This document shows positions 1,573-8,033 of a stretch of DNA of 64,000 nt, piece after piece. Each line of letters begins with the position of its first letter. The stretch's first letter is position 1. The position numbers and the translations under genes are program-made. The notes beneath the pieces were generated by a model. It saw only the letters and a list, made by a program, of their open reading frames with translations. It was not told the DNA's origin and did no database searches. Source of the stretch: Rathayibacter oskolensis (GTDB taxonomy: Bacteria > Actinomycetota > Actinomycetes > Actinomycetales > Microbacteriaceae); NCBI RefSeq assembly GCF_900177245.1, contig NZ_FXBM01000002.1, forward strand, positions 248,001 through 312,000. Reading direction: 5' to 3'.

Positions 1573-2682
1573 TCAGAGGTGGACGACCTCCGGGCCGGCC
1601 GCATGCGAGTACTCGAAGAACAGGTGGGACACCAGGGCGGCCCGGGACGACACGCCGGTTTTCATGAGCACGGCTTTGACGTGATCCCGCACGGTGTGCT
1701 CGGAGAGGAACAGGGAGTCCGCGATCGCGGTCGTCGACTCTCCTCGTGCCAATCTCAGCGTGACCTCGAGCTCGCGACGCGACAACCCGTAGGCCTCTGC
1801 GAGCATCGGTGCGAGGTCTCGGCGGGTCGTCGGATCGATGGTCACCGCGAAGGCCCGTGGTTCACCTGTCGATCCGCGCAGCGCTGATGCCCGGATCCGC
1901 AACCACTGCCCTGAGCGCGATGGCAGCAGCATCTCGCCGGTTCCGTGTGCGCGACCGTGCTCGACGGCCCTGGCGTGCGCGAGCGCGGTGGTCAGCGCGG
2001 TCGGCATCTCGTCGGTGATCACGCTGTTCGGCAGTTGATCCAGCCAGTGCAGTGCGTCGTCGTTCGCGGCGAGGAGAACGCCGTCGAGATCGAAGGTCAG
2101 GATGCCCGGGCCGGTATCGGGGCGCTGCCCTGCGCCGTCGACCAGGAGCTTCTGGCGCATGACCTCGGCCAGCGGCTGCGAGAGGGTCTCGAAGAAGTGC
2201 ACTTCTGCCGGTGAGAACGCGGGCAGGTCGTCGCGGCGCAAGAGGACGACCACTCCCCACGTCGAGTCGCCAGTGCGGAAGGCGGAGCGCAGCTCGTCGT
2301 GGAAGCCGTTGGGCTCCAGGTACTCCCGGTACCGGGCGCTGCGGGCCATGAGCCCGCCGAGTTCGGCCTGCATGGCCCCGGTGGAGCGCGGCCCGACCGC
2401 GAGGTCCTTGACCAGGAGGGTGTCGTCCTCGAGGAACTCGCGCCTCCAGTACGTCTCGCACTGCCCGGCCTCGACGTTCTCGATGCGGGCGGGCCAGGAA
2501 GGAAGCAACGTGGTCGGGTCCACCCCGAACCAGCCGGAGGCGTCCGCCGGCACGAACTCGGCAAGGCCTGCGGACACCGAGCTGAACAATGCCTGGGCCG
2601 TCGGTGCCGCCTCAGCGGCTGCGATGATCCGGCTCCTGGCTCGGCCGAGCTCATCAGAGGACAGGAGCTCGGGGATGGGCAT
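1573..2682 (-). CDS. LuxR family regulator with GAF- and PAS-like sensor regions
   Basis: A transcription factor of about 369 residues. The C-terminal LuxR HTH lies near residues 300-360 (LSRRELEVTLRLARGEST, then FLSEHTVRDHVKAVL). Residues 30-165 look like a GAF domain and 180-285 like a PAS domain (ILTFDLDGVLLAANDDALHW), so it probably senses a small molecule. There is no phosphoacceptor receiver domain. I chose the ATG at 2682 (MPIPELLSS); an upstream ATG at 2751 would add 23 residues of low-complexity sequence. It is transcribed away from the FAD oxidase operon that starts 160 bp upstream, so it may control that operon. It resembles the LuxR at 39929-40939 in architecture. Confidence 0.85.
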   Translation of the reverse strand: MPIPELLSSDELGRARSRIIAAAEAAPTAQALFSSVSAGLAEFVPADASGWFGVDPTTLLPSWPARIENVEAGQCETYWRREFLEDDTLLVKDLAVGPRSTGAMQAELGGLMARSARYREYLEPNGFHDELRSAFRTGDSTWGVVVLLRRDDLPAFSPAEVHFFETLSQPLAEVMRQKLLVDGAGQRPDTGPGILTFDLDGVLLAANDDALHWLDQLPNSVITDEMPTALTTALAHARAVEHGRAHGTGEMLLPSRSGQWLRIRASALRGSTGEPRAFAVTIDPTTRRDLAPMLAEAYGLSRRELEVTLRLARGESTTAIADSLFLSEHTVRDHVKAVLMKTGVSSRAALVSHLFFEYSHAAGPEVVHL

Positions 2683-2842
2683 GCCACAGAGTCGCACGCG
2701 CCTGCCCCGTACACCATCCCCGAGATGAGGGATCTGCCGACAGGCATCCACTCGTGCGCGGGGATGGTCGCGATGTGCGCCTCGCCGTCATCGTTGCCTC
2801 GGTCGCGGATACCGCTGCGATCCCCCCTTCTCAGGAGCACTC

Positions 2843-4318
2843 ATGACCGTCGCCGGCCCCCACCGTCTTCCCCAGCACAACCCCCGCACTCCCCTCGAGG
2901 ATCTCGAGTTCACTCTTCTCGGTTCCGTGGTCGGACCCGCCGACCCCCACTGGGACAAGGCCCGGGCGGCGTGGAACCTCACCGCCGATCAGCAGCCCGC
3001 CGCTGTGGTCTTCACTGTGGACGCGGCCGACGTCAGCGCGACCGTCCGGTACGCGACAGCTCTCGGCCTCAACGTCCTTGCGCAGTCGACCGGGCACCTC
3101 GCCACGGCCGTCGGCGACCTCGCCGGGACCGTGCTCATCCGGACGGCGCGCATGCGCTCGGTCCGAGTCGATGCGGAGAAGCAGACGATGCGCGTGGAAG
3201 CGGGAGCGACGTGGGGCGTCGCCACCGCCGCGCTGGAGGGCACTGGCCTCGCCGCACTCGCCGGATCCTCCGGCGAGGTCGGCATCGTGGGCTACACGCT
3301 GGGCGGCGGCTACAGCTGGCTGTCCCGATCGCGCGGCCTCGCCGCGTCCTCCGTGACCGCCATCGAGCTGGTGCTCGCCGATGGAAACCTCCTCCGAGCG
3401 ACCGCGGAAGAGCACGCCGAGCTCTTCTGGGCTGTTCGAGGAGGCGGAGGCAACTTCGGCATCGTCACCGCGCTCGAGTTCCGGGTGTATCCCGTCTCCG
3501 AGGTCTCCGCAGGCATGCTCCTCTTCCCCCTCGAACAGACACGATCCGTCCTCGAGGAGTACGCCCGCTGGACGGAGGACCTCGATGAGCGCGCGACGAC
3601 CTGCTTCCGCATTCTTCACTTCCCTCGGCTGCCCGACCTTCCCGACTTCCTGCGCGGACAGTCCTTCGTCGGCGTCGACGGTGCGATCGATGCTCCGGAG
3701 GACGTCGCCCAGCGGCTGCTGGCCCCCCTTCGAGCTCTGGAGCCCAGCATCGACACGTTCACGCGGATCCCCGCCACCGCCCTCGCCGGACTCCACCTCG
3801 ACCCCTCGGACCCTGTCCCCGTGATCGGCGACGGGATGATCCTGGACTCGCTCACGCCCGAGGTCGTCGACGCGCTGCTCGGCTCGGCCGCGGGGATGGA
3901 TCCGAGCGCCCTGCTCATCGTCGACCTCCGTCACCTGGGTGGCGCCCTCGGGCGACCAGCGGGCGGCGGCGCCGTCGACCACCTCCCGGGTCGATTCCTC
4001 CTGTACGCGGCCGGTATCGCGCCGTCTCCGCAGGCGGCCGCTGCCGTGATCACCGCGATCACCTCCGTCCGCCTGGCTCTCGCACCGTGGGCTTCCTCGA
4101 TCGACTACAGCAACTTCCGCGAGGTCCGCGAGGCACCGGAGCGCTTCTGGGCGCCCGACGTGCTCGAGCGGCTCCGGGCCGTCAAGAAGTCCGTGGATCC
4201 CCGCGGCATCATCCGGAGCGCGCACACCCTCGAACCGCGAACCTCCACGAGCAGCCGCGCGCTCTCGGCCGACGCCGCGCCGGACGACCTCGCGCACCGG
4301 ATCCCGGCCGAACGATGA
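2843..4318 (+). CDS. FAD-linked oxidase of the berberine-bridge / 6-hydroxynicotine oxidase type
   Basis: A 491-residue flavoprotein with an FAD_binding_4 (PCMH) domain at about residues 50-220 and a C-terminal BBE segment (RLRAVKKSVDPRGIIRSAHT). The His that is usually attached to FAD is present in QSTGHLA. The second attachment Cys of bicovalent members is replaced (GSSGEVGIVGYTLGGGYSW), so a single covalent link is predicted. Family members oxidise sugars, alkaloids or alcohols with O2, and the substrate here cannot be told. There is no signal peptide, so it is cytoplasmic. An AGGAG sits just upstream of the ATG. Its stop overlaps the next start by 4 bp (ATGA), so it is the first gene of a three-gene operon. 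Confidence 0.85.
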   Translation: MTVAGPHRLPQHNPRTPLEDLEFTLLGSVVGPADPHWDKARAAWNLTADQQPAAVVFTVDAADVSATVRYATALGLNVLAQSTGHLATAVGDLAGTVLIRTARMRSVRVDAEKQTMRVEAGATWGVATAALEGTGLAALAGSSGEVGIVGYTLGGGYSWLSRSRGLAASSVTAIELVLADGNLLRATAEEHAELFWAVRGGGGNFGIVTALEFRVYPVSEVSAGMLLFPLEQTRSVLEEYARWTEDLDERATTCFRILHFPRLPDLPDFLRGQSFVGVDGAIDAPEDVAQRLLAPLRALEPSIDTFTRIPATALAGLHLDPSDPVPVIGDGMILDSLTPEVVDALLGSAAGMDPSALLIVDLRHLGGALGRPAGGGAVDHLPGRFLLYAAGIAPSPQAAAAVITAITSVRLALAPWASSIDYSNFREVREAPERFWAPDVLERLRAVKKSVDPRGIIRSAHTLEPRTSTSSRALSADAAPDDLAHRIPAER

Positions 4319-7074
4319 GCGCCGTCGACCTGCTCGCGACCCCGTCGGCGTCCCTTCCGCTCAGCGCACACCGCGATCGAGCACCGGATCACAGTCCTCT
4401 GTCGATCCGCACCCCCGATCAGCTTCTCCGGGTGTTCGTGAGCTCCACGCTCCGCGAACTCGCGGAGGAGCGCCGGGCCGTGCGCGCGGCAGTCGAGCGG
4501 ATGCGACTCGCGCCGGTGATGTTCGAGCTCGGCGCTCGCCCGCACCCCCCACGGGACCTGTACCGCGCATACCTGCAGCGCAGCGAGATCTTCCTCGGCG
4601 TGTACGGGCACCGATACGGCTGGGTCGCCCCTGACGAGACCGTGTCCGGCCTCGAGGACGAGTACAACCTCGCGCCGGCGACCATGCCCCGCCTCATCTA
4701 CATCAAGGAGACCGGCGAGCCGCCCGAAGCCCGCCTGGTCGCGCTCCTCCAGCGCATCCGCAACGACGACCGCGCCTCCTACAAGTCCTTCGAGACGGTG
4801 GACGAGCTGCGCGAGCTCGTCGAGGCGGATCTCGCCACGCTCCTCGCCGACCGCTTCGACGCTGCCCGAGCACACCTCGACGCCGGCGATGACCGAGCAT
4901 CGGACGACGACCGCTCGATCGTGATCCGCCCGGGTGAGGGCCGTCGAGCACCTCAAGCACTCCCGACGGCGCTGACGGCGTTCGTCGGGCGAGAAGAGGA
5001 ACTCACTGCGATCGACACTCTTCTCGTACACGACCGCGCGCGCCTGGTGACCCTCACCGGACCCGGCGGCATCGGCAAGAGCCGCCTCGCCATCGAGGCG
5101 GGCCGGTCATCGCGCAGCGCCTTCCCCGATGGAGTGGTCTTCGTGCCGCTCGCGTCCGTGACGGATGCAGCCCTCGTCCCCGCAGCGATGGCAGAGGCAC
5201 TCGGCGTGCGCGATACGGGCTCCGAACGCTTGATCGACACCCTCGAGAGGGCTCTCCGCGAGCGCACGATGCTGATCATCGCGGACAACCTCGAGCAGGT
5301 CCTCGGTGCGACGGACACGATCACCGCTCTCCTCGCCGCTGTACCCGGGCTCTCCTTCCTCGTCACCAGCAGGACGCTGCTGCGGATCGTCGGCGAGCAC
5401 ATGGTCCCGATCAGACCTCTTGCGCTTCCCACCGGGTCGCATCCTGATCCCGATCAGGCACTGGAGTCTCCCGCGGTGCAACTGTTCGTGCAGCGCGCGA
5501 GGTCCCTGAGACCCGACTTCGAGGTGACCGACGAGAACGTCGAAGCGATCGTCGGCGTGTGCAAGCACCTGGACGGCGTGCCTCTCGCTCTGGAGCTGGC
5601 CGCCGCCAGCATCCGACTTCTCCCCCCCTCTGCGCTACTGCTCAGGCTCCGCCAGCATCGTCCTCTTCCCGGAGCCGCCCGCGACCTCCCCACCCGCCAG
5701 CACACCATCGAGGAGACGATCGCGTGGAGCGTGCAGCTGCTCACCGATCACGAGAGGACGCTGATGCACCGCCTCGGCGTGTTCGCCGGAGGATTCTCCC
5801 TCGAGGCGGCGGAACATCTCGCCGACGACAGCGCCGACGTGCTGAGCGACCTCGGCGCCCTCGTGGACGCGAGCCTGATCCAGCAGCAGGACAGGGGAGA
5901 CCGCGCACTCTTCACGATGCTCCGCTCCGTGCAGGACTTCGCGCGTCGCGTCCTCCAGGACACCGGCTCGCTCGAGTCGGCGCGCCTGTCCCACGCTCAC
6001 TACTACACCGCCCGAGCCCTCTCGCTTGCGCCACAGCTCAAGGGCCGACACCAAGCCGAGACCGTCATCGCGCTGGCAGACGAGCGAGACGATCTGCGTG
6101 CAGTGGTCCGATACCTCATCGAGCGGCGTCAGTGGGACCACCTCTCGAATTTCGCCTGGAACCTCTACGTCTACTGGTGGGTCGGCGGGCTTCTCGGCGA
6201 GGTCCACGGATGGATGCACGAGATGCTGAACTCCGAGGATGACCTCCCCGAGCTCAGCCGTGCCACCAGTCTCTACTTCACCCGCGCGATCACGTTCTGG
6301 CAGGACCCGGATCGAGGGGTCCTCCCCGGACTCACCGAGAGCGCCCAGCTCTTCCGCTCCACCGGTGCGTCGGCCCACGAGGCTCTCGCGCGGACGTCCA
6401 TGGCGCTCGCGCTCCTCGCCGGCACGCCATCGGACCCGGATCGCGCAGACGAGGAACTCGAGACCGCGCTGACCCTCTTCCGCACCGCCGACGATGCCTG
6501 GGGACAAGCGCTCGCCCTGGTGACCCTCGGCCGCTCGGCGATGCTCGCAGGCAAGATCCAGCGCGCACTCAACAGGTTCGACGAGAGCATGTCCCTGTCC
6601 CACCAGCAGGAGGACACCCTGAGCGAGGCGATCGCCGTTCACCACCTCGGCTGGGCGCAGCTCTTGCTCGGCGACACCGACAGTGCCTGCTCCCGATTCG
6701 AGCAGAGTCTTGCCGCGTCCTCCCGCTCCGGGCACGCCGAAGGCATGGCCTACGGTCTCGAGGGACTCGTCGCCATCGCCGCGACTCGCGGCGAGATCGA
6801 TCGGGCGGGGCGACTGCTCGGGGCTGCAGAGGTGCTGCGAGAACGGACCGGCCTCTACAACGCCCCCTCGTTCTCCTTCCACCAGCAGGTGATCGCCCCG
6901 ATCCTCGCCGGTGACGACCGGACGGAGTTCGAGAGCGCACGAGCCGAAGGACGCCGACTCGAGACATCGGACGCGGTCCAGTTCGCACTGCATCCGAGCC
7001 CGCCGACTCGGGCGCCGGTGACCCTCGAGGTCACGGCGCCGTCCGCGGACCGGTCGGAAGGCTCTTCGCTGTGA
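4315..7074 (+). CDS. DUF4062 - STAND (NB-ARC) ATPase - TPR regulator
   Basis: A 919-residue signalling protein. Residues ~38-125 match DUF4062 (LRVFVSSTLRELAEERRAV, FLGVYGHRYGWV, PRLIYIKE), a TIR-like Rossmann module. A STAND NTPase follows, with Walker A GPGGIGKSRLA near residue 250, Walker B MLIIADNLEQV, sensor LSFLVTSRT and the GxP motif GVPLALELAAA. Roughly the last 350 residues are helical repeats of TPR type. No DNA-binding domain is visible, so it is not a classical AfsR or LAL activator. The start codon overlaps the upstream oxidase stop by 4 bp, and its own stop overlaps the next GTG by 4 bp. It may sense a ligand for the operon. DUF4062-STAND proteins are also found in conflict systems, but nothing else here supports defence. 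Confidence 0.85.
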   Translation: MSAVDLLATPSASLPLSAHRDRAPDHSPLSIRTPDQLLRVFVSSTLRELAEERRAVRAAVERMRLAPVMFELGARPHPPRDLYRAYLQRSEIFLGVYGHRYGWVAPDETVSGLEDEYNLAPATMPRLIYIKETGEPPEARLVALLQRIRNDDRASYKSFETVDELRELVEADLATLLADRFDAARAHLDAGDDRASDDDRSIVIRPGEGRRAPQALPTALTAFVGREEELTAIDTLLVHDRARLVTLTGPGGIGKSRLAIEAGRSSRSAFPDGVVFVPLASVTDAALVPAAMAEALGVRDTGSERLIDTLERALRERTMLIIADNLEQVLGATDTITALLAAVPGLSFLVTSRTLLRIVGEHMVPIRPLALPTGSHPDPDQALESPAVQLFVQRARSLRPDFEVTDENVEAIVGVCKHLDGVPLALELAAASIRLLPPSALLLRLRQHRPLPGAARDLPTRQHTIEETIAWSVQLLTDHERTLMHRLGVFAGGFSLEAAEHLADDSADVLSDLGALVDASLIQQQDRGDRALFTMLRSVQDFARRVLQDTGSLESARLSHAHYYTARALSLAPQLKGRHQAETVIALADERDDLRAVVRYLIERRQWDHLSNFAWNLYVYWWVGGLLGEVHGWMHEMLNSEDDLPELSRATSLYFTRAITFWQDPDRGVLPGLTESAQLFRSTGASAHEALARTSMALALLAGTPSDPDRADEELETALTLFRTADDAWGQALALVTLGRSAMLAGKIQRALNRFDESMSLSHQQEDTLSEAIAVHHLGWAQLLLGDTDSACSRFEQSLAASSRSGHAEGMAYGLEGLVAIAATRGEIDRAGRLLGAAEVLRERTGLYNAPSFSFHQQVIAPILAGDDRTEFESARAEGRRLETSDAVQFALHPSPPTRAPVTLEVTAPSADRSEGSSL

Positions 7075-8033
7075 GAGGGCAGACCCGCCTGGCCGGAGCA
7101 CGGGCCGTACGCCGAGCAAGCGCCGTCGCTGTCTACCACCGATCGCTCGCTCTGGTCCTCCTTCCGTTCCTCGTCGTCGCGAGCTTCCTGCTCTACGTGC
7201 TGCCGGGCGAGACCGACACGCTCTTCGCCTGGACCATCGAGCCGCCCCTCACCGCGATGCTCCTGGGGAGCGCCTACCTCGGTGGCATCTGGTTCTTCGG
7301 TGCGAGCACTCGAGTCGGAAGCTGGCGAGCCGTACGACGAGGAATGCCCGCGGTGCTCGTCTTCGCCTCCCTCCTCCTCGCCGCGACGCTCCAGCACCTC
7401 GACCGCTTCCACGCCGGGCATCCCTCCTTCATCGCCTGGATCGCCCTGTACCTCGTCGCCCCGGTATTCGTCCTGATCGAGATCCGGCTCCATCGACGCG
7501 TCGACGACGGCTCGGACGCGCCCCGGGAGTACAGGATCCCGCTGCCCCTCCGAGTGATGCTCGCCACGCTCGGTCTGATCGTCACGGCCGCGGGACTCGC
7601 CTTGTTCCTCGCGCCCGCACTCGTGCTCGACGCCTGGCCCTGGGCACTCACCCCTCTCACAGCTCAGGTGATCGGAGCCGTGCTCACTCTGCCCGGTGTC
7701 GTGAACGCGCACCTGCTGATCGACGCCCGATGGAGCGCCTTCCGCACCGTCTTCCAAGCCCAGCTCTTCAGCCTCGTGTTCATCATCGGCGCCCTTCTCG
7801 TGACCGGGAAGGAACTCGGCGAGACACCCGGCGCCGTGGCTCTCCCCACCTTCATCGGGATCGCCGCGCTCGCCTACGCGTCGTTCTACATCCACTGCGA
7901 GACGCGCATCGCAACGCCCGGCGCGTCACCCGATCGAGACGGCCGGCGTTCTACGACCCGACAGCGTGTCACCCCACCGGGAGGAGCGGTGCGGCGCGCG
8001 CGGGCGGCCGCGGGGCACCGGGCCGCCCGCTGA
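7071..8033 (+). CDS. Eight-helix integral membrane protein of unknown function
   Basis: A 320-residue protein with about eight predicted transmembrane segments (for example LALVLLPFLVVASFLLYVLP and LTAQVIGAVLTLPGVVNAHL) and an Arg-rich cytoplasmic tail of about 40 residues. I see no transporter, kinase or enzyme motif. The GTG start overlaps the TGA of the STAND gene (GTGA, 7071-7074), so translation is coupled to it. The strict coupling in the order oxidase, STAND ATPase, membrane protein suggests the last protein is a membrane partner or sensor for the pathway. The tail codons are very GC-rich, and the exact end could differ if a frameshift is present. Confidence 0.75.
   Translation: MRGQTRLAGARAVRRASAVAVYHRSLALVLLPFLVVASFLLYVLPGETDTLFAWTIEPPLTAMLLGSAYLGGIWFFGASTRVGSWRAVRRGMPAVLVFASLLLAATLQHLDRFHAGHPSFIAWIALYLVAPVFVLIEIRLHRRVDDGSDAPREYRIPLPLRVMLATLGLIVTAAGLALFLAPALVLDAWPWALTPLTAQVIGAVLTLPGVVNAHLLIDARWSAFRTVFQAQLFSLVFIIGALLVTGKELGETPGAVALPTFIGIAALAYASFYIHCETRIATPGASPDRDGRRSTTRQRVTPPGGAVRRARAAAGHRAAR

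Follow-up and report, generated by a model that had tools for sequence, protein, structure and literature searches.

A conserved gene pair of a DUF4062-bearing STAND protein and an eight-helix membrane protein in Microbacteriaceae, preceded by a probably lineage-specific oxidase gene in Rathayibacter oskolensis

In a 64,000-nucleotide stretch of the Rathayibacter oskolensis genome (contig NZ_FXBM01000002.1, positions 248,001 to 312,000; the whole stretch is called the window here), the genes of a FAD oxidase, a STAND ATPase and a membrane protein (MEM) follow one another on the same strand, and the question raised by this locus is which of the three belong together. A first, sequence-only reading of the window had described the three open reading frames and the 4-bp overlaps that join them (ATGA at 4315 and GTGA at 7071), and all of these are present in the sequence. 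The overlap of the STAND gene with the oxidase stop codon is real, since ATG 4315 is the sole in-frame ATG, GTG or TTG between GTG 4087 and GTG 4432, the latter lying within the DUF4062 domain; our home-made gene caller wrongly puts the STAND start at 4432. A search for consensus promoters and terminators found none, an uninformative null because the chance expectation was only 0.2 and 1.0, respectively.

The STAND and MEM genes form a real, conserved two-gene module. With a profile search we found one MEM gene each in at least 34 of 398 Microbacteriaceae genomes, and a STAND gene lies directly upstream on the same strand in all 34 (counts from the genome searches are lower bounds, few candidates having been scored per genome: 6 for MEM, 3 for the oxidase and 7 for the flavoprotein described below). 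The spacing between the two genes, as given by the gene caller, ranges from -11 to +250 bp and is -4 in 20 of these loci; the value of +250 bp belongs to Naasia aerilata (L011; L and G numbers denote our loci and genomes), whose last STAND gene is split by the caller. DUF4062 was found in 68 of the 398 genomes, among them 33 of the 34 with MEM (Fisher p 5e-28 from manually compared lists, uncorrected for relatedness), and the sole MEM genome without it, G117, is represented by a cut contig of 3.1 kb in which the C-terminal STAND part alone matched. These loci bear out the proposal of a fixed unit of STAND and MEM, and the junction between the two genes is beyond chance.

A genome scan for the STAND protein gave 53 loci, 46 of them from Microbacteriaceae: 14 have MEM, 38 have STAND but lack MEM (of which 29 extend 2 kb or more to both sides), and one is without a called STAND gene. 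In a phylogeny of 94 STAND proteins, 3 changes suffice to explain which of them have MEM next to them, versus 31.5 for shuffled labels; L149 is labelled "no" there owing to an uncalled MEM gene, which by coordinates lies between the flavoprotein and STAND genes. The STAND protein of the window is sister to those of Leifsonia sp. ALI-44-B (L041) and Okibacterium fritillariae (L044), with 62% identity to the latter. Among 198 genomes from the family of Microlunatus flavus (G005), at least 8 encode MEM; in three of these STAND adjoins it in the order MEM-STAND, with 4-bp overlaps in L046/L151 and L148, the third being L149. In a sample of the phylum, MEM was found in at least 18 of 396 genomes, only G005 and G084 having an adjoining STAND gene, although some loci end at contig ends.

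Pfam assigns DUF4062 (1.5e-20, residues 39-120), NB-ARC/AAA and TPR to the STAND protein of the window and no DNA-binding domain, in agreement with what had been read from its 919 residues. The ATPase motifs, G249, G251, G252, G254 and K255 of Walker A and the Walker B aspartate D324, are invariant in 40 sequences. Among PDB sequences, the DUF4062 domain matches KpSwz (10wc, E 0.0013) and, as a weak second match, a TEP1 chain (11gz, E 0.14). Glu114 of the window protein (SGLEDEY) aligns with the Glu of SFTEKAF in KpSwz, which is E97 if the KpSwz chain begins at residue 16, an offset derived from the construct names in the preprint on these proteins; the window STAND thus appears to keep the catalytic residue, Glu114 standing opposite the Glu taken as KpSwz Glu97. 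The nearby Glu116 is kept in 94 of 94 STAND proteins. Mean identity within the family is 72% for DUF4062, its most conserved part, 54% for NB-ARC and 42% for TPR. Where tandem STAND genes share one MEM, the copies are 81-88% (DUF4062), 63-74% (NB-ARC) and 39-53% (TPR) identical in the four of Naasia L008, and 86-89%, 71-74% and 44-54% identical in the three of L004, a pattern expected of receptors that respond to various inputs through a common output. A search at 1e-5 found no phage copies of the DUF4062 domain.

A 2026 preprint describes DUF4062 as a TIR-like NADase, both in human TEP1 and in KpSwz (Swarozyc), where it acts in phage defence; according to this preprint, over half of the Swarozyc genes adjoin a homologue of a known defence gene, KpSwz carries a small helix-turn-helix (HTH)/winged portal-binding AUX domain, and the word "membrane" is absent from the main text (PMC13174449). 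Like Swarozyc, the window STAND has an N-terminal DUF4062 with an alignable catalytic Glu, but it differs in its NB-ARC and TPR parts, in the separate membrane protein and in the flavoprotein gene that often lies nearby. By Pfam it contains no HTH family that could stand for an AUX-type domain, a comparison made at the level of sequence families. A DUF4062 next to a STAND (NACHT) ATPase with repeats as sensor is likewise found in human TEP1, NWD1, NWD2 and NPHP3, although these are eukaryotic and the proteins discussed in the preprint carry WD40 repeats (PMC13174449). In the titles and opening parts of abstracts of the literature on DUF4062, STAND NTPases and anti-phage defence, the STAND-MEM gene pair was not described. 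The NB-ARC and TPR parts are also homologous to those of AfsR/HaaT-type actinobacterial proteins; AfsR has an N-terminal SARP DNA-binding domain, in the place of which the window STAND bears DUF4062.

STAND genes without MEM have neighbours of their own. In Microbacterium L026:7389-17331, where a MEM-less DUF4062-STAND gene adjoins probable rpoB/rpoC genes, genes of a CHAT protease and of a caspase (Peptidase_C14) come next; L027 and L040 have the same arrangement, with the caspase identified by a domain search in L027 and CHAT in L040, and the partner gene of each assigned by clustering. MEM-less copies adjoin probable rpoB/rpoC genes, named by size and position, in many Microbacterium loci, and in L037:1181-5052 a long-branch STAND gene without MEM is followed, with a 4-bp overlap, by the gene of another membrane protein, one that matches DUF998.

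The third protein had been described as an eight-helix protein of no known family, and this description holds. Its AlphaFold model (mean predicted local distance difference test score 86.6) has eight helices of transmembrane length, counted on the helix list, and the protein consists of two related halves (hhalign E 1.6e-7 versus a best of 0.029 among 30 column shuffles). Nothing near a curated cut-off was found for 15 members against Pfam (best E 0.0097) or for the window copy against NCBIfam, and no match up to E 1 among PDB sequences. A relationship to the DUF998 membrane protein of L037 was rejected (hhalign probability 3.5). Relatives of MEM are encoded on a Chloroflexota plasmid (L200:4860-5741, 39% identity, next to an NAD-dependent epimerase gene) and on a haloarchaeal plasmid (L201:4872-5741, 33% identity), and L165:9792-11480 holds a tandem pair of MEM genes with an 8-bp overlap. 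A cluster of proteins of about 250 residues is encoded at most two genes from MEM in six actinobacterial loci (L144-L146, L148, L151 and L159); both of the proteins tested from this cluster match DUF5995. Oxygenases of the MpaB/Lcp type are found near MEM in L153 and L159.

A flavoprotein is better supported than the oxidase as a third partner of MEM. This protein of about 560 residues (Pyr_redox_2) is thioredoxin-reductase-like; it bears a FYGASAVEA-type sequence, and the region before its GGGNSA motif lacks CxxC. Its gene was found at 19 of the 40 Microbacteriaceae MEM loci other than that of the window and at none of the 39 other loci of the STAND scan without MEM, some of which are short; the set tested for this count also holds L046, where MEM is present and the flavoprotein gave no match. 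In 16 loci it was called as a gene divergent from STAND, and in L005, L089 and L111 it was missed by the gene caller and detected by tblastn only. Homologues above 450 bits (51-100% identity) are encoded in at least 15 of 199 Microbacteriaceae genomes, all 15 of them MEM-positive (Fisher p 4e-17, with 23 MEM genomes among the 199, uncorrected for relatedness). Two of these 15 genes lie away from MEM, about 18 kb off in G084 and on another contig in G194, and weaker relatives (at most 337 bits) occur in many MEM-less genomes. Outside Microbacteriaceae, flavoproteins of 41-48% identity are encoded just upstream of MEM, without STAND, in L158, L160, L163 and L166, and upstream of MEM in L150, cut there by the contig end. 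Within the 64-kb window, no CxxC-less flavoprotein was found.

The oxidase of the window matches the Pfam families FAD_binding_4 (2.4e-20, 73.1 bits, cut-off 26.4) and BBE (2e-4, 21.7 bits, cut-off 20.6). The best-scoring NCBIfam models for the oxidase and for the divergent LuxR regulator are those of the bagremycin/ferroverdin genes, the FAD oxygenases BagK/FevA1 (NF041226, 303 bits) and the LuxR proteins BagY/FevT (251 bits), but both scores are far below the respective cut-offs of 800 and 700. The regulator had been read as a GAF/PAS LuxR protein; its divergent orientation was found as described, and it has a GerE domain, with GAF and PAS_4 slightly below their Pfam cut-offs. The sequence-only reading further held the STAND protein to be fixed between a redox enzyme and a membrane protein, and here the genomes disagree. 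At E <= 1e-5, none of the 34 Microbacteriaceae STAND-MEM loci (2.5 to 22.8 kb each) has an oxidase homologue, nor do the sister loci L041 and L044; conversely, STAND and MEM are absent from the roughly 1.5 kb that flank the oxidase gene on either side in all of its 30 best-scoring loci (2.9-4.4 kb each, BLAST identity 40-60%). A conserved trio was rejected on these counts: in many actinobacteria the STAND-MEM part is kept, and the position of the oxidase, judged by the refutation criterion of the sequence-only reading, is local to the window within the sampled loci. Oxidases of this kind are encoded in at least 96 of the 398 genomes at 1e-60, and a LuxR regulator 27-34% identical to that of the window lies beside the oxidase homologue in 5 of the 30 best-scoring loci; since the LuxR-oxidase pair recurs alone in these, it was also rejected as a founding part of the STAND module.

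Alignments of the oxidase stop by residue 478 of 491 in all 30 best-scoring loci, a few more distant ones reaching residues 480-489, and most of the 30 non-conserved N-terminal residues of STAND match DNA that precedes the likely STAND ATG in L041 and L044. The window lacks this ATG, so that 4315, within the oxidase stop codon, is where STAND translation has to begin. Judging from these alignments, the junction looks recent, STAND having apparently adopted a start within the oxidase stop, and we infer that the oxidase is the newcomer. This junction was found only in the window and may be no more than chance, and the oxidase is probably a lineage-specific passenger or substitute and not a founding part of the module. 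One similar coupling was found in Microlunatus flavus (G005, L087), where the end of an oxidase gene and a second copy of MEM share 4 bp; this oxidase is 39% identical to that of the window and its best NCBIfam model is likewise BagK/FevA1. One case in about 70 MEM loci is merely suggestive against pure accident, because oxidases of this kind are common. An MFS gene common to the window and Microlunatus was considered and rejected (29% over 128 residues, E 0.009). Two results thus point in the opposite direction to a purely local oxidase: a different flavoprotein is strongly tied to MEM, and in Microlunatus, a single distant genome, MEM is coupled to an oxidase of this kind.

At roughly even odds (a probability of about 0.5), we read the STAND-MEM pair as an NLR-like (nucleotide-binding, leucine-rich-repeat receptor-like) DUF4062 NADase module with a new membrane partner, of which the oxidase is probably not a founding part. 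The divergent TPR part would sense a trigger, upon which the NB-ARC ATPase would oligomerise and switch on the N-terminal DUF4062, a putative TIR-like NADase depleting NAD+. MEM, made in step with STAND through coupled translation, would be its obligate membrane partner, acting as an anchor, as a transmitter of the trigger or as a second effector, and the CxxC-less flavoprotein would be part of the module in many species. The oxidase and the LuxR regulator would form a metabolic pair of their own that ended up directly before STAND-MEM and captured the STAND start, and the oxidase would now co-express the two genes. Of the earlier idea of a signalling or defence unit with an oxidase effector, the role is plausible for STAND-MEM because DUF4062 is described as a TIR-like NADase in the preprint (PMC13174449), and the oxidase as a part of it is not supported.

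Several observations weigh against this reading. In 5 of 47 MEM-linked STAND proteins, which form one clade (L090, L091, two copies in L109, and L116) and retain MEM and the flavoprotein, the catalytic Glu is replaced by Ala (SGLADEY), and in two others, both from L023, by Gln; NADase activity can therefore not be universal unless Glu116 takes over. The MEM-less array L025 is 69-82% identical in DUF4062, 51-83% in NB-ARC and 34-64% in TPR, so the gradient from conserved DUF4062 to divergent TPR belongs to the STAND family and not to the pair. Most MEM genes outside Microbacteriaceae were found without an adjoining STAND gene, and MEM thus has a life of its own; a fold search with MEM gave no convincing match. 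Known defence genes, whose presence had been suggested as a check, are not conspicuously frequent among the neighbours; of 188 listed from 41 loci, 150 were scanned (the scan excluded those of the window itself, four that are very long, and the loci in shared contexts). PADLOC matched 34 families among the 150, with no background set; mad2 leads among the 25 shown (6 members), HerA- and GajB-type models have one member each, and some matches are possibly generic. In the Pfam tally of the same neighbours, Pyr_redox_2 comes first with 16 members.

Defence is the leading inference for the role of STAND-MEM, and its main rival, possible although clearly less probable, is a sensor of redox or metabolic stress, in which MEM, as a redox or NAD(P)-linked protein of the membrane, would work together with flavoenzymes, and STAND would be its ligand-sensing switch. 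Such a sensor would account for the flavoprotein at 19 of 40 MEM loci versus 0 of 39 MEM-less ones, for the MEM-positive state of all 15 genomes in which close flavoprotein homologues were found, two of which have the gene away from the MEM locus, and for MEM genes behind a flavoprotein gene without STAND (L158, L160, L163 and L166), behind an oxidase gene in L087 and before the epimerase gene on the Chloroflexota plasmid; the clade that lost the catalytic Glu and retains both MEM and the flavoprotein also fits it. It does not predict tandem copies with a conserved DUF4062 and a diverging TPR part or the caspase and CHAT neighbours of MEM-less relatives, and it has to face the NADase and phage-defence functions reported for DUF4062 elsewhere (PMC13174449). 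A more speculative variant, to which we give slightly less weight still, joins the two ideas in a three-part system centred on NAD(P), composed of an NLR-like DUF4062 NADase, MEM and the CxxC-less flavoprotein, where STAND would guard or gate a membrane redox pair and the oxidase of the window would occupy the slot of the flavoprotein; such a system was not seen in the papers searched.

A functional trio, with the oxidase as effector or signal source for STAND-MEM in the flavoprotein's slot, is unlikely. The 4-bp coupling of the oxidase gene to STAND, that of a BagK/FevA1-like oxidase gene to MEM in Microlunatus, the recurrence of flavoproteins beside MEM and the lack of one in the 64-kb window speak for it, but no oxidase was found in the DNA covered at 34 other STAND-MEM loci of Microbacteriaceae, it is lacking in the sister loci (L041, L044), neither STAND nor MEM was found in the DNA around the 30 oxidase homologues, and Microlunatus is one genome in a setting where such oxidases are common (at least 96 of 398 genomes). 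Even less probable is a transcription-associated or housekeeping regulator of the AfsR kind, unrelated to immunity or redox: the NB-ARC and TPR parts do resemble AfsR in sequence and MEM-less copies lie beside probable rpoB/rpoC genes in many Microbacterium loci, but by Pfam the STAND protein is without a DNA-binding domain and its most conserved part is DUF4062 (72% mean identity versus 42% for TPR). The NLR-like NADase module with MEM as its partner is the reading we prefer; the features of the locus on which it is built are collected in Table 1.

Table 1. Features of the Rathayibacter oskolensis locus, in positions of the window.
Feature	Position	Strand	Remarks
LuxR-type regulator (GAF/PAS-like and GerE)	1573..2751	minus	Divergent from oxidase; Pfam, NCBIfam
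Berberine-bridge-type FAD oxidase	2843..4318	plus	Pfam, NCBIfam
STAND leader, 30 codons	4315..4404	plus	Comparison with L041/L044 DNA
STAND protein (DUF4062, NB-ARC, TPR), 919 residues	4315..7074	plus	4-bp overlap at either end
MEM, eight-helix membrane protein	7071..8033	plus	Without Pfam family; two related four-helix halves

Only with the 2026 preprint did DUF4062 receive a function, for short bacterial proteins and human TEP1, and the bacterial STAND proteins share the APAF-1-like order discussed there for TEP1 and NWD1. With these NLR-shaped relatives, which form a small coupled module with a membrane protein of no known family, the switching of a DUF4062 NADase by a STAND ATPase could be tested in bacteria. 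MEM itself, which is found in actinobacteria and on a Chloroflexota and a haloarchaeal plasmid, gains its first functional context.

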